NCBI GenBank assembly: GCA_028697145.1
Contig: JAQVFR010000033.1
Location: 1-42,375 of the forward strand
Reading direction: 5' to 3'
DNA length: 42,375 nucleotides
From: Actinomycetota bacterium
GTDB taxonomy: Bacteria > Actinomycetota > Geothermincolia > Geothermincolales > RBG-13-55-18
Each line of letters opens with the position of its first letter. Position 1 is the stretch's first letter. The position numbers and the translations under genes were made by a program. The notes under the pieces are model-generated. The model was not told the DNA's origin. It did not search any database and saw only the letters and a list, made by a program, of their open reading frames with translations. This document shows, in pieces, positions 2,703-26,933 of the stretch.

Positions 2703-5498
2703 GTGAGAGTGGGATGCGGTGAGATGAGCAGCAGACATGTCCTTGTTCCCTTGACGGTTTTCCTGGTCACCCTGGTCCTCGTCTGCGGGGGCTCCGCCCT
2801 CTCCCGCGATCCCGCCGGCGCGGCCGTCACCCCGACGCAGTGGCGGCAGGAATGGATGCTCGACGTGGGCGGCATCTTCAAGCACGCCTCCCCTACCCTT
2901 GCCGACATCGACGGGGACGGGCGCCAGGAGATACTGGTGGGAAACAGCAACGGCCACCTCTATTGCGTCAACCCCGACGGCGGCATCCGCTGGGTCTTCA
3001 ACACCGGGGGCAATATCCAGGGGGCGCCCCTGGCCGTGGACTGCGACGGCGACGGGACGATGGAGATCTTCATCGGCTGCGACAGCGGCTTCGTGCACGG
3101 GCTCAACGCCTGGGGCTCGCCCCTCTCCCAGTGGGGGTGGCCGAAGCATGCCGGCACCGCCTTCGGCTATTACCAGGTGTTCTCCTCGCCTGCCAGCGGC
3201 GACCTCGACGGCGACGGCGACCTGGAGATCGTCGTGGGTTCGTGGGGCCATTACATCACCGCCTGGCATTACCAGGGGCCCGTCGCCTGGCAGTATTACA
3301 ACGCCGATACCGTGTGGTCCTCTCCCGCCTGTGGGGACGTGGACCTGGACGGCAAGGACGAGGTGGTCATCGGGGCGGACTGCTGGAGCGGGCCCAACTG
3401 GCCCTGGCCGCGCGGCGGCCTCCTCTACGTCTTCGAGGGCGACGGCTCCATCAAAGCAGGCTGGCCCAAGGCCCTGCCCCAGGTGATCTGGTCCTCTCCG
3501 GCCATAGCCGACCTGGACCGCGACGGCTTCCCGGACGTGGTGGTGGGTACCGGCCTCTACTGGCAGAACGCCAACCCGGCGGCGTCGAACTATCTCTCCT
3601 ACGCCGACGGCAGGCACGTCTATGCCTTCAACTACCGCGGGGAGAACCTCCCCGGCTGGCCCGCGGGTACCGGCGACAACAACTTCTCCTCCCCCGCCGT
3701 CGGTGACGTGGACGGAGACGGGTACTTCGAGGTGGCCTGCGCCTCCCTCGACGGCTGGGTCTACCTGTGGGAGCACGACGGCGCCTTGAGGTGGAAGCGC
3801 CAGAACAGCGGCGCGACCAAGATGGGCTCGCCCGTCATGGCAGACATAGACGGCGACAGGGACGTCGACGTCCTCTGCCCCGACGCCTGGTCGGTGTGCG
3901 CGTGGGACGCGTCCGGCAACATGGTGCTCGACGCCTATACCAACGGCCTGATCATGAACGCGCCGGCGGTGGGCGACATAGACGCCGACGGGCGCATCGA
4001 GCTGGTGGTGGCCAACGGGAGCCAGGACACGGACGGGCGCTGCATCTTCTGCTACGAGGGGGGCAGTTTCGACCCCTCCCTCGCCCCCTGGCCCATGTTC
4101 CGCAAGGATGCCCGCCACAGCGCCACCATACCCCACGAGGAGGTACCCGACCTGTGGCCCCCCGAGGAGGTCAGGACGCGCCTCTTCCTCGCCGAGGGTT
4201 ACACCGGCAGCGGCTTCAGCGAATACATCCTCTTCATGAACCCCCACGACTACCCGGTGCAGGTGCAGATAAGGTACATGCTGGCCAGCGGCAAGTCCGT
4301 GGTGCAGGTGGTGACCATCCCGCCGCTCTCGCGCATGACCGTGCCGGTGCACGCCTTCGTGAGCGGCCAGGACGTCAGCGCCTATATCATCTCCGACCAG
4401 GACGAACTCATCGCGGAGAGGGCGCTCTACTTCAACTACAACGGCGGCTGGGCCGGCGGCTCCAACGTCATGGGGGCGGCCTCCGCCCAGACCGAGTGGT
4501 ATTTCGCCGAGGGGTGCACGCGGCCCGGTTTCCACACCTGGCTGTGCCTGCAGAACCCGGGCGACACCGACGCCCGGGTCACCATCGACTACCTCTGCGG
4601 CGACGGGGCGAACGAGCGCAGGAACGTGACCGTGAAGGCGCGCTCGCGTTACACCGTGGCCGTGCACGGGGCGGGAGAGGGCATAGGCGAGCACGCCTCC
4701 GCCCGCGGCGACGTCTCCATCAAGGTGACCTCGACCCAGCCCATCGTGGCCGAGCGCCCCATGTACTTCAACTACAACGGCGCCTGGGCGGGCGGCTCCA
4801 ACGTCATGGGGGCGACCTCCGCCCGGGCGGAATGGTTTTTCGCGGAGGGGTGCACACGGCCCGGTTTCCACACCTGGCTGTGCCTGCAGAACCCCACGGG
4901 CGCCGATGCCGAGGTCACCATCGACTACCTCTGCGGCGACGGGGCGAACGAGCGCAGGAACGTGACCGTGAAGGCGCGCTCGCGTTACACCGTGGCCGTG
5001 CATGACGCCACCAACGGCATCGGCATCCACGACGGGCCCCACGGCGACGTCTCCATCAAGGTGACCTCTACCCAGCCCATCGTGGCCGAGCGACCCATGT
5101 ACTTCGACTACAACGGCGCCTGGGCGGGTGGCTCCAACGTCATGGGGGCGACCTCCGCTCAGGTGGGATGGTATTTCGCCGAGGGGTGCACGCGCCCCGG
5201 TTTCCACACCTGGCTGTGCCTGCAGAACCCCACGGGCGCCGACGCCGAGGTGACCATCGACTACCTCTGTGGCGACGGGGCAAGGGTGAGCAGAAAGGTC
5301 TCGGTGAGGAAGAGCTCGCGTTACACCGTGGCCGTGCATGACGCCACCAACGGCATCGGCATCCACGACGGGCCCCACGGCGACGTCTCCATCAAGGTGA
5401 CCTCTACCCAACCCATCGTGGCCGAGCGCCCCATGTACTTCAGCTACAACGGCAGCATCAACGGCGGCCATAACGTCCTGGGCTCTCCCCTGCCGTAG
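2703..5498 (+). CDS. Secreted FG-GAP/VCBS-repeat protein with four C-terminal beta-rich repeats
   Basis: 931 residues from GTG 2703; an in-frame ATG at 2724 (MSSRHVLVPL) is an equally plausible start, and neither has a strong Shine-Dalgarno. A signal peptide (LVPLTVFLVTLVLVCGGSAL) is followed by about seven FG-GAP/VCBS blades carrying calcium-loop motifs such as DIDGDGRQEILVG and DLDGDGDLEIVVG, which would fold as an extracellular beta-propeller. From about residue 495 there are four tandem units opening with (F/W)-F-AEG-(Y/C)-T and ending near AERPMYFNYNGAWAGGSNV. The last three are 336 bp each at DNA level and nearly identical, which implies recent duplication or gene conversion. The same repeat family occurs in the SpoIID-domain protein at 22703-25177. 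No sortase signal or C-terminal membrane segment is visible. The function is probably adhesion or a cell-surface structure; this is inference. Confidence 0.85.
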   Translation: MRVGCGEMSSRHVLVPLTVFLVTLVLVCGGSALSRDPAGAAVTPTQWRQEWMLDVGGIFKHASPTLADIDGDGRQEILVGNSNGHLYCVNPDGGIRWVFNTGGNIQGAPLAVDCDGDGTMEIFIGCDSGFVHGLNAWGSPLSQWGWPKHAGTAFGYYQVFSSPASGDLDGDGDLEIVVGSWGHYITAWHYQGPVAWQYYNADTVWSSPACGDVDLDGKDEVVIGADCWSGPNWPWPRGGLLYVFEGDGSIKAGWPKALPQVIWSSPAIADLDRDGFPDVVVGTGLYWQNANPAASNYLSYADGRHVYAFNYRGENLPGWPAGTGDNNFSSPAVGDVDGDGYFEVACASLDGWVYLWEHDGALRWKRQNSGATKMGSPVMADIDGDRDVDVLCPDAWSVCAWDASGNMVLDAYTNGLIMNAPAVGDIDADGRIELVVANGSQDTDGRCIFCYEGGSFDPSLAPWPMFRKDARHSATIPHEEVPDLWPPEEVRTRLFLAEGYTGSGFSEYILFMNPHDYPVQVQIRYMLASGKSVVQVVTIPPLSRMTVPVHAFVSGQDVSAYIISDQDELIAERALYFNYNGGWAGGSNVMGAASAQTEWYFAEGCTRPGFHTWLCLQNPGDTDARVTIDYLCGDGANERRNVTVKARSRYTVAVHGAGEGIGEHASARGDVSIKVTSTQPIVAERPMYFNYNGAWAGGSNVMGATSARAEWFFAEGCTRPGFHTWLCLQNPTGADAEVTIDYLCGDGANERRNVTVKARSRYTVAVHDATNGIGIHDGPHGDVSIKVTSTQPIVAERPMYFDYNGAWAGGSNVMGATSAQVGWYFAEGCTRPGFHTWLCLQNPTGADAEVTIDYLCGDGARVSRKVSVRKSSRYTVAVHDATNGIGIHDGPHGDVSIKVTSTQPIVAERPMYFSYNGSINGGHNVLGSPLP
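4491..5498 (+). repeat. Three 336-bp in-frame tandem repeats inside the FG-GAP gene
   Basis: Units start at 4491, 4827 and 5163, an exact period of 336 bp (112 codons). Units two and three share long identical blocks, for example the DATNGIGIHDGPHGDVSIKV segment. A more diverged first unit lies at about 4180-4490. High nucleotide identity including synonymous positions suggests recent expansion, and the region is a likely site of copy-number change and of misassembly. Confidence 0.9.
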
Positions 5499-22702: not shown

Positions 22703-25177
22703 TTAGGAGCCGGTGTAGCCCTCGGCGAAGAGCCAGGTGGTGGAGGTGCCGGTCACGCCAAGGGCGGCATGCCCGCCGCGGCGCCCGTAGTAGTCGAAGT
22801 ACACGGCGCGCTCGACCACGACGCCCCTCCCGCCCGTCTCCTCCACCACCACGGAGACCTCGTCGGCGGGGAAATGGTCGTCCACGCGCAGGGTGAAGCG
22901 CGAGCGAGGCGGCAGGTCGAAGAAGGCCTCTTTCGCCAGCCCCGCATTGGTGAGGAAGGAGAACTTCACCCGCGCCGCCTCGCCGGAGGGGTTGCCCACC
23001 AGCACCCAGGTATCGAACCCGCCCGCGGTGTAGCCCTCGGCGAGGTACCACTTTGCCGCCGCCGCGGGCGTCCCGGCGCTGCACGACCCGCCCTGCTTCC
23101 CCTGGTAGTCGAAGTACATGGCGCGCTCCGCCACCACCGGGCGGTCGCTCTCCACCAGCGCCGCTACCTCGGCCGCGGGCAGGTGTTCGTCAACGTGCAG
23201 GGTGTAACGGGAGTGGGGGGCCACCTCCACCTCCAGCGTCTTGCCGCCGGAACCCCCGGGGACCAGGAGGTTGAAAGTCACCCTGGCCACCTCTGCGGAG
23301 GGGTTGCCCACCAGCAGCCAGGTATCGAAGGCCTCGGCGGTGTACCCCTCCCCGAACAGCCAGGTGCCGGAGAGAGCGGGCGACCCCAGGGCCACGTGTC
23401 CTCCCCTCCTGCCCTCGCTGTCGAAGTACATGGCGCGCTCGACGACCACCGGCCGGTCGCAACTCACCTTGGAGGCGAAGGAGCACGCCGAGAAGTCCGG
23501 CACCCCGTCCACGTAGAGGGTGGCGCGCGACCGCGCCGGCACGCTCATCTCCACGCGGCCGGTGTGGCCGTCCTCGCGCAGGAGGTCCACGGCGGCGTGG
23601 GCCTCCTCCCCGCCCGGGTTGTAGAGGAGGATCCACGTGTCGAAGGCCTGGGCGGTATAGCCCTCGGCCAGGTTCCACTCCGTAGCGGCCGCCGCCGCTC
23701 CGTGCTCGCACGAGCCCCCGCTGTATTCGCCCAGATAATCGAAGTACATGGCGCGTTCGGCGACGATGCCGCCGCTGCTCGTCACCTCCGCCGATATCTC
23801 GGCGTCGCGGAAGTAGTCGTCGGCGTGCACGGTGCGCCGCGACATGGCGGGAAGCTCCACGTCCGCCTGCTTCTCCTCCCCCATCGCGGTGCGCATCTTC
23901 ACCTGTGCCGAGACCGCTTCCCCGCCCGGGTTGGCCAGCAGGATGTATTCGTCGAAGCGGTCGGCGGGCGCGTTGACCATGGACGAGCGCAGTCCGAAGT
24001 AGCCGCGCAGGTTCTCCCCGCTGACGCGCACCGTTCCAGCGCTGCCGGTGAACGAGGCATAGCGCACCCTCCCGCTCGCGGTGCGGTCGGAAAGGTCCAT
24101 GCCGTAGAGCGTGCCCACGTAGGTGCTGGAACGTGAGTTGAGCCGCCTCTCCATCTCGGCCCGGCTGTAGGCCACCGTCCAGGAGGCGAAGGGGTTGTTG
24201 GCGGGGTCCTCGCACCACGGGCAGGGGACGCCGCGCAGGTAGGGCACCGGGGTGCCGAACCACACGTCCTCGTTGTTATCGGTATGGCCCCCGCAGGAAG
24301 CGGAGTAGAAGCAGTGCGCCACCGAGCCCGCGTAGGTGAGCACCTGCCCCGCCGTGGCTTCGACCGCCTGCACCCAGCCCGCGTCCTTCTCCTTCTCGTA
24401 TCCCTGGTAATACTGGCAGTGCGTCTCGTCGCAGATGTCGTAGCCGGAGGATGCGTGCTTGCCCATGCTGCTCACGGCGTAGGAGCGGGCGGCGACCGCC
24501 TGCGCCTTCACCGCTTCCTGCGGCCAGCTGCCCGAGACCTCCGCGATGCCACGCAGGTAGGTCTCGAAATCGCTCATGAGGACGGCCCGCATGGCGTAGG
24601 ACGATGCGCCGTAAACGTTCAGCTCCAGGGGTGCGTAGCCGGAGAGATGGCTCACCTTGCGCCCGCCGTTCTGGGGCAGGCACAACACGTCGCCGTCTCC
24701 CAGGGCGCTGACGTAGAGGGGGTCGCCCGGGCCTCCGTAGGTCGCGCCGTTGAGGTGGGTGCCGTCCGGCCGGAATATGCAGAACCTACCCTGCGCGTCC
24801 GCCCCCACCGTCCAGGTGCCGCCGGGGGTCATCACCCCGCCGGGGATGGCGCCGCCCCTGGTGTAGAAGGTGAAGGTCCCCGATTCCGGCGCGAGCTGGA
24901 TGGAGGACTGGTTCTCCAGGAGACCCACGTGCAGCGAGCCGGGGCAGGGCCAGGCACTCACCTGCGTCCCCTGGTAGTAATGGGTGAGGATCTGCTCGTA
25001 ACCGTGGCCCGCCGCGGCCATGCCCTTCGCGCCGTACTGGCACATGCCCACGCCGTGCCCCCAGCCTGAGCCGTAGAAGACGTAGGTCTCCTGCAGGGCC
25101 AGCGCCTCTCCCGCCCCGAACGGCACGGGCAAAACCATCAACAGCAGGGCCACGATTACCGCCAGTATCCTTCTCAG
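22703..25177 (-). CDS. Secreted SpoIID/LytB-domain protein with C-terminal beta repeats, last repeat truncated
   Basis: About 824 residues if it starts at CTG 25177, which gives a proper signal peptide with a basic n-region (LRRILAVIVALLLMVLPVPF) and GGAGG eight bases upstream. The first standard start is GTG 25153, which loses the basic residues. After the signal comes a SpoIID signature GWGHGVGMCQYGA. The SpoIID catalytic-type region follows (YLRGIAEVSGSWPQEAVKAQ, AVAARSYAV; CHCQ-like DICDETHCQYYQGY; SASCGGHTDNNEDVW), to about residue 390 counted from GTG 25153. SpoIID enzymes are lytic transglycosylases acting on denuded peptidoglycan. The rest is four beta-rich repeats (AEGYTA.. FDTW.L.. 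NP, AERAMYFDY) of the type in the FG-GAP protein at 2703. A fifth unit stops after LFAEGYTGS, where repeat copy D begins. It probably acts at the cell wall. Confidence 0.85.
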   Translation of the reverse strand: MRRILAVIVALLLMVLPVPFGAGEALALQETYVFYGSGWGHGVGMCQYGAKGMAAAGHGYEQILTHYYQGTQVSAWPCPGSLHVGLLENQSSIQLAPESGTFTFYTRGGAIPGGVMTPGGTWTVGADAQGRFCIFRPDGTHLNGATYGGPGDPLYVSALGDGDVLCLPQNGGRKVSHLSGYAPLELNVYGASSYAMRAVLMSDFETYLRGIAEVSGSWPQEAVKAQAVAARSYAVSSMGKHASSGYDICDETHCQYYQGYEKEKDAGWVQAVEATAGQVLTYAGSVAHCFYSASCGGHTDNNEDVWFGTPVPYLRGVPCPWCEDPANNPFASWTVAYSRAEMERRLNSRSSTYVGTLYGMDLSDRTASGRVRYASFTGSAGTVRVSGENLRGYFGLRSSMVNAPADRFDEYILLANPGGEAVSAQVKMRTAMGEEKQADVELPAMSRRTVHADDYFRDAEISAEVTSSGGIVAERAMYFDYLGEYSGGSCEHGAAAAATEWNLAEGYTAQAFDTWILLYNPGGEEAHAAVDLLREDGHTGRVEMSVPARSRATLYVDGVPDFSACSFASKVSCDRPVVVERAMYFDSEGRRGGHVALGSPALSGTWLFGEGYTAEAFDTWLLVGNPSAEVARVTFNLLVPGGSGGKTLEVEVAPHSRYTLHVDEHLPAAEVAALVESDRPVVAERAMYFDYQGKQGGSCSAGTPAAAAKWYLAEGYTAGGFDTWVLVGNPSGEAARVKFSFLTNAGLAKEAFFDLPPRSRFTLRVDDHFPADEVSVVVEETGGRGVVVERAVYFDYYGRRGGHAALGVTGTSTTWLFAEGYTGS

Positions 25178-25246
25178 TTCCCTCTCCTCCGTTTCGCTAC
25201 CGCTACCCGGCGCGTGCCGTTATGGCGTCATTCCTTGCAGCATCAT

Positions 25247-26829: not shown

Positions 26830-26933
26830 CTTCCTTGCCCGGCGCCTCAGGCACGAGGCGAGGCTTGACCCCAAGGCCTCACTTCCTTGCCCGGCGCCTC
26901 AGGCACGAGGCGAGGCTTGACCCCAAGGCCTCA
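26830..26933 (-). repeat. Exact 52-bp tandem duplication (family 2) overlapping the mfd 3' end
   Basis: Units 26830-26881 and 26882-26933 are identical. Read on the minus strand each contains GGGGTCAAGCCTCGCC and a hairpin CGCCTC-GTGCCT-GAGGCG. The second unit supplies the mfd stop codon (26901..26899). A related copy is at 37250. The 26788-26829 remainder is a short spacer. Confidence 0.9.

Follow-up and report, generated by a model that had tools for sequence, protein, structure and literature searches.

Arrays of four TM1070-type domains on exported proteins of the actinobacterial class Geothermincolia: a predicted closed ring and candidate cell-surface retention cassette

The stretch of 42,375 nucleotides analyzed in this study (hereafter, the window) comes from contig JAQVFR010000033.1 of assembly GCA_028697145.1, an actinobacterium of the class Geothermincolia, and encodes an FG-GAP propeller protein and a SpoIID/LytB protein that both carry C-terminal arrays of four homologous units. 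With a probability of roughly 0.58, we read such an array as a covalent ring of four domains, mostly located at the C-terminus of exported proteins, which would act as a cell-surface retention cassette on a wall or surface glycan. The closed ring of four domains on one chain is the well supported part of this reading. Among 242 complete entries, obtained from 323 arrays by removing 12 duplicates and 64 arrays touching an end or a gap, four unit-equivalents were found in 208, including 25 of the 38 entries from the window's own genome and 183 of the 204 from relatives.

Moreover, the arrays fall into four registers that are circular permutations of one another. Class I arrays start with strand A (W-x-F/L-AEG) and end with strand H (GGH...G), and the FG-GAP protein is an example. 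In class II arrays, exemplified by the SpoIID protein, unit 1 is without strand A, and strand A forms the last dozen residues of the protein. This C-terminal tail was detected in 60 of the 62 arrays without strand A in unit 1 versus 1 of 122 others, and in the two exceptions the tail was present but below threshold. In class III, strand H precedes unit 1 and the last unit is without it; of the arrays with no strand H in the last unit, 27 of 34 have it ahead of unit 1, versus 6 of 122. The Fisher p-values for these strand associations (6e-45 and 3e-18) are too small because orthologues were treated as independent. Class IV arrays are cut in mid-unit near profile position 60 and comprise ten arrays (L092:836-3904, L093, L095, L192, L205, L220, L232, L245, L254 and L260), plus L091, which has an interruption. 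These ten sum to 3.75-4.04 unit-equivalents and sit inside a host domain, to which Pfam gave no name in the two arrays scanned (L092 and L260). The strand count is conserved across the registers, with nothing lost or gained, the plain reading of which is that the chain ends would meet in a closed ring. In a further set of arrays, a unit is split by an insert of about 190 residues (L047:502-2826, minus strand; L121:5764-8148; L123:5809-8136; L143:5812-7161); the three complete cases still total four units.

The features of the two window proteins are as follows:
2703 to 5498, plus strand: FG-GAP propeller protein with a C-terminal four-unit array in the class I register
2853 to 4109, plus strand: FG-GAP propeller part (PF13517, E 3.2e-31)
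4179 to 4490, plus strand: FG-GAP protein unit 1, residues 493-597, which has kept its own identity among orthologues
4494 to 4826, plus strand: FG-GAP protein unit 2, residues 598-709, C18/P81 subtype; units 3 and 4 are homogenised with it
4830 to 5162, plus strand: FG-GAP protein unit 3, residues 710-821, C18/P81 subtype
5166 to 5495, plus strand: FG-GAP protein unit 4, residues 822-931, C18/P81 subtype; the protein ends with this unit
22703 to 25153, minus strand: SpoIID/LytB protein with a C-terminal four-unit array in the class II register
23924 to 24589, minus strand: SpoIID/LytB domain (TIGR02669, E 5.5e-60)
23684 to 23974, minus strand: SpoIID protein unit 1, without its own first strand (W-x-F/L-AEG)
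23369 to 23680, minus strand: SpoIID protein unit 2
23057 to 23365, minus strand: SpoIID protein unit 3
22742 to 23053, minus strand: SpoIID protein unit 4
22706 to 22741, minus strand: SpoIID protein C-terminal strand TTWLFAEGYTGS, interpreted as unit 1's first strand in displaced position

An earlier sequence-only reading of the window had described four units in the protein at 2703, and these were located at residues 493-931. The exact period of 336 bp that it reported holds for units 2-4. The description of their DNA as near-identical was an overstatement: units 2-4 share 78-88% DNA identity with exact runs of at most 97 bp, and the identity of unit 1 to them is only 41-45%. For the SpoIID protein, four and a part units had been proposed, of which the four were recovered. 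The remaining part is read as a displaced strand, and a truncated fifth repeat is rejected, because the tail recurs in nearly all like arrays, as counted above, and no continuation was found in the three downstream frames. The tail strand was modelled with a predicted local distance difference test (pLDDT) score of 95-98. Furthermore, TM1070 of Thermotoga aligns to one unit with strand A placed in front (residues 101-208 of the SpoIID model), and thus the class II tail should belong to unit 1, into which the displaced strand is predicted to pack. At the other end of this gene (window 25094-25219, minus strand), the listed GTG start cuts into a hydrophobic stretch. Since basic residues typical of a signal peptide (ELRRILAV) lie upstream of it, the true start may be a codon outside the listing.

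Both window proteins passed the cut-off of DUF5719 (PF18986; 26.2 bits), with 68.1 bits for the FG-GAP protein and 50.0 bits for the SpoIID protein. With PF07100, the family of proteins like Anabaena sensory rhodopsin transducer (ASRT; cut-off 25 bits), the FG-GAP protein scored 26.7 bits, and the SpoIID protein did not appear among the matches with E up to 10. A profile built from the eight window units gave TM1070 (E 0.011) and ASRT (E 0.09) as the best solved relatives, which are weak matches by sequence. The AlphaFold models of both tetrads were compact; that of SpoIID (45 sequences) had a pLDDT of 95.6 and a predicted TM-score (pTM) of 0.92, and that of FG-GAP (20 sequences) had values of 87.7 and 0.90. 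The best Foldseek match of the SpoIID tetrad was TM1070 (E 1.1e-9). Comparison of this model with TM1070 (1NC7) gave a Z of 16.8 and a root-mean-square deviation of 2.4 over 108 of 116 residues, and comparison with ASRT gave a Z of 12.5; the FG-GAP tetrad matched TM1070 with a Z of 15.9. The 50 Foldseek rows listed all had query TM-scores of 0.25 or less, so that no whole PDB chain arranged in the same way appeared among them, which does not show novelty. Fold comparison of the predicted structures settles that the units belong to the ASRAH (ASRT/TM1070) beta-sandwich superfamily, represented in Pfam by DUF5719. This superfamily was named by De Souza, Iyer and Aravind in 2009, who argued from structure and context that its members bind sugars; solo members form tetramers, and secreted ones are dyads or tetrads (PMC2739507).

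The modelled tetrads display the eight-stranded beta-sandwich of the TM1070/ASRT type, and the hallmark residues of the superfamily, Trp where strand 1 begins (position 2) and Asn where strand 2 ends (position 21), occur in 91% and 99%, respectively, of the units with a letter at the position concerned. The PF07100 signature SHEshChhN with its pocket His and Cys was absent in most units: out of 1118 unit hits, just 20 combined His14 with Cys18, the pair lining the TM1070 pocket, and the rest of the signature differs. These 20 include FG-GAP units 2-4 (window 4494-5495). Taken together, the profile and fold searches join the two sets of units, so that the earlier proposal of one homologous secreted module on a propeller and on a peptidoglycan enzyme is borne out. 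Weak NCBIfam matches to lactaldehyde reductase were taken as chance, and neither CWB2 nor SLH matched the window proteins at E up to 10.

The module is widespread in the window's genome and class. A DUF5719 search of the genome returned 49 matches and the unit profile 146, including all 8 window units, and a re-scan of the window and 34 genome stretches yielded at least 154 units in 52 open frames, which correspond to about 46 genes once frames interrupted by gaps or shifts are merged. In a search of 20 genomes of relatives (own genome included), 33 or more units were detected in all 20 and at least 150 in many. In a sample of 149 genomes of the phylum, all 13 genomes of the same class (own included) had at least 32 units, and the other 136 Actinomycetota genomes had 1-3 units (31 genomes) or none (105). 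The metagenome-assembled Actinomycetota genomes with profile matches include those of two named relatives, Candidatus (Ca.) Geothermincola and Ca. Solincola, the latter assigned to the class Geothermincolia; in the scanned collection, the class consists of metagenome-assembled genomes only. The frequencies of classes I-IV are not representative, because the arrays of relatives were picked by best score or by a query of five units, four of which came from class II and III hosts. Units also occurred in records that bear the names Acidimicrobium ferrooxidans and Ca. Methanosuratincola, the latter an archaeon (L099:59-5224; L135; L142); these records probably reflect mislabelling or mixing of bins. 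The arrays at L048:3570-4955 (minus strand) and L066:1-858 (plus strand) are very divergent, score weakly as units and have a motif of their own, AERSSYF; they may represent a second branch of the family.

Several features of the hosts point to a role at the cell surface. A hydrophobic N-terminal segment, called with a simple hydropathy rule rather than a signal-peptide program, was present in 38 of 49 own-genome array frames, and nine of the other eleven look like fragments. For 196 of 217 class I-III arrays, no more than 20 residues separate the array from the C-terminus. Among 39 own-genome proteins scanned, the hosts include SpoIID (two), YkuD (two), NlpC/P60, an amidase, polysaccharide deacetylase (two), CAP, subtilases, M28, a lipase, a nucleotidase, oxidases and several propellers. 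A C-terminal module shared by so many unrelated exported proteins, wall enzymes included, looks like a surface anchor. The arrays therefore probably retain their proteins at the cell surface, and on balance a glycan is the expected ligand. The genome contained only one SLH match.

The predicted ligand cleft defines two subtypes of unit. In the alignment with TM1070, whose motif reads HESLCIMN, profile position 14 falls on the His, position 18 on the Cys and position 21 on the Asn, and the His (H25) and the Cys (C29) are ligand contacts (PMC2739507). The predicted cleft strand has an acidic residue at position 14 (Asp/Glu in 87%) and an aromatic one at position 16 (Tyr/Trp in 90%), counted over those of 594 units that have a letter at the position. 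Moreover, positions 18 and 81 are linked, with 310 Cys18/Pro81, 338 Leu18/Ala81, 29 Cys18/Ala81 and no Leu18/Pro81 units. Position 18 was uniform across all units in 91 of 173 four-unit arrays versus about 10 by shuffling. In complete arrays with at least three units, the Leu18 kind was found in 21 of 23 SpoIID hosts, 13 of 13 YkuD hosts and 8 of 8 NlpC/P60 hosts; units 2-4 of the window FG-GAP protein are of the Cys18/Pro81 kind. These subtypes may reflect either the ligand or only descent.

The history of the arrays was followed in the FG-GAP protein, which had matches in 19 of the 20 genomes of the relatives search (own included). At the 12 loci of its orthologue search (own included), four units were found in nine and three in one, and two were incomplete. 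The mean identity among units 2-4 within the window array was 81%, compared with 64-75% to the same positions in two orthologues of the same genus, and unit 1 matched its own orthologue best. Therefore, the copies were homogenised in place while their number was held, and the recent expansion of three 336-bp units proposed from sequence alone is rejected on the basis of the orthologue counts and this within-array homogenisation. In five arrays of the genome, 100-N scaffold gaps lie inside identical copies (L040:4393-4492, L047:3290-3389, L055:5788-5887, L060:3912-4011 and L061:5821-5920), which points to recent homogenisation as well as to assembly problems in these arrays.

At the level of whole arrays, FG-GAP hosts carry class I arrays with P81 (4 of 5, one mixed) or class II arrays with L18 (6 of 6), and amidase hosts likewise carry class I with P81 (9 of 9) or class II with L18 (5 of 5). 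The host labels are best blastp hits (E 1e-8) to own-genome hosts and one from L092, so that orthologues and paralogues are not distinguished. The occurrence of different array classes on the same host type fits an exchange of whole cassettes, and arrays seem to have been passed between hosts in this way; paralogy is the alternative. When own-genome units were compared with units beyond the array they belong to, 37 of 96 best hits lay at the same position, so that duplication of whole tetrads was only partly visible. Elsewhere in the window, a perfect 52-bp tandem duplication lies near a gene end (26830-26933).

In the mechanism that we propose, each array would be a closed ring of four ASRT/TM1070-type beta-sandwiches, a covalent version of the TM1070/ASRT homotetramer. 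Following export, the four equivalent clefts of the ring would bind a repeating wall or surface glycan, and the bound ring would keep propellers, proteases, peptidoglycan enzymes and other hosts at the envelope. Ring closure would set the number at four and leave the chain ends free to lie at various places on the circle. Copies would be homogenised within the array, and whole arrays would be swapped between hosts. Several observations weigh against this proposal. Thirty-four of the 242 entries do not sum to four and hold three or fewer units, although several of them are fragments, and intact-looking arrays of two or three units occur in classes II and III (e.g., L086, L112 and L149). A covariation test on 202 tetrads (effective number 103) for a contact of unit 4 with unit 1 had no power, since mutual information missed held-out neighbouring pairs. 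The two window proteins differ in subtype (C18/P81 in FG-GAP, L18/A81 in SpoIID), and because the difference lies at the predicted pocket, their arrays may bind different ligands. Finally, four sortase matches in the genome show that other anchoring exists. A tentative extension of the proposal, which we hold to be somewhat less probable than not, is that Geothermincolia anchor much of their exported proteome by a permutation-tolerant ring of the ASRT fold, with the two pocket subtypes sorting proteins to two wall or surface polymers.

The argued sugar binding of the superfamily (PMC2739507) would also suit a substrate-targeting carbohydrate-binding module that fixes secreted enzymes to outside polysaccharides, such as those of biofilm or detritus, and some hosts do resemble glycoside hydrolases. 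However, many hosts act on the cell's own wall or on no glycan (SpoIID, YkuD, NlpC/P60, subtilases, nucleotidase, lipase and propellers), and the sharing of a single module by about 46 hosts within a genome better fits retention, which makes substrate targeting unlikely. Somewhat less probable still is a protein-binding hub, in which arrays would dock to each other or to a surface protein and build a coat like an S-layer. The near-invariant charged residues E6, R52, E79 and R80 could be interface residues, and CWB2 triads bind the wall and also tile an S-layer (PMC8881574). On the other hand, the known oligomer of the superfamily is already complete in one tetrad, and no candidate partner turned up, although none was sought.

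The remaining explanations are far weaker. Tandem beta-sandwiches often serve as stalks, and the arrays might be passive spacers that raise a catalytic domain off the cell; stalks vary in number, however, and four fixed units with complementary permutations and a pTM of 0.90-0.92 misfit a flexible string, so that this explanation is very improbable. That the window repeats are an artefact of assembly is scarcely credible. In its favour, scaffold gaps interrupt five other arrays of the genome inside identical repeats, but the window arrays contain no N, their units differ by 12-22% in DNA, and the same gene with four units is found in separate assemblies. The retention ring is our preferred reading.

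The fold, the family and the existence of tetrads are already known. TM1070 (1NC7) and ASRT (2II7) share with the arrays the beta-sandwich fold, the Trp of the first strand, the Asn after the second strand and a functional tetramer (PMC2739507). Their solo forms are intracellular homotetramers (PMC2739507), whereas here four domains are placed on one exported chain, circularly permuted and mostly with Asp/Glu in place of the pocket His. The secreted amidase ASRAH tetrads of Roseiflexus and its relatives (PMC2739507) have, like both window proteins, four tandem domains; one locus of the genome, L072, likewise encodes an amidase with four units. The Roseiflexus-type tetrads are always fused to an amidase (PMC2739507). 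In contrast, Amidase_3 was found in L072 alone among the 39 own-genome proteins scanned, the window hosts are FG-GAP and SpoIID, and the arrays occur on many types of host, have expanded across the class and come in permuted registers. An actinobacterial cell-surface lipoprotein with an ASRAH dyad (PMC2739507) is also exported and of the same Pfam family, and is presumably the source of DUF5719. It has two domains and WhiB and glycosyltransferase neighbours (PMC2739507), unlike the tetrads on many hosts described here, with four units in both window proteins.

Two unrelated modules work in a comparable manner. The CWB2 triad of Clostridioides difficile is a fixed-number tandem on many surface proteins, whose three domains complete each other's sheets by strand exchange into a closed, pseudo-symmetric prism (PMC8881574). 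It differs in its unrelated fold, its three domains and its known polymer ligand, PSII, and the arrays thus work like it without being members. The SLH triad also consists of tandem domains, whose jointly formed pockets bind a wall polymer, but its fold is helical and unrelated and it has three domains (PMC6081394). In the open-licence literature, DUF5719 was not found by name, and PF07100, PF18986 and DUF1362 led only to PMC2739507, which was also the only one among the matches listed for ASRAH-type terms to treat the superfamily, judged by title and abstract start; a few of the others listed dealt with ASRT itself or were chance matches. On the same basis, nothing on surface proteins was found for Geothermincolia, and among the matches listed for 'Solincola' the papers with relevant titles concern other bacteria. 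To the extent of these searches, it is new that the module has expanded across the class, that its number is fixed over many hosts and that it comes in four circular permutations and in two subtypes.

In conclusion, if the proposal holds, an actinobacterial class would have its cell-surface anchor identified and a signature for its surface proteome provided. The ring would be an independent pseudo-symmetric anchor beside SLH and CWB2, undescribed as an anchor within the open-licence literature searched. The same ring cut at four places, and nearly always of four domains, would be a clean natural case of ring closure, and the path from an oligomeric ancestor through tandem duplication to a fixed repeat number would become a directly testable link. 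Moreover, the ASRT fold, which was named for light signalling, would gain a main role in envelope biology.

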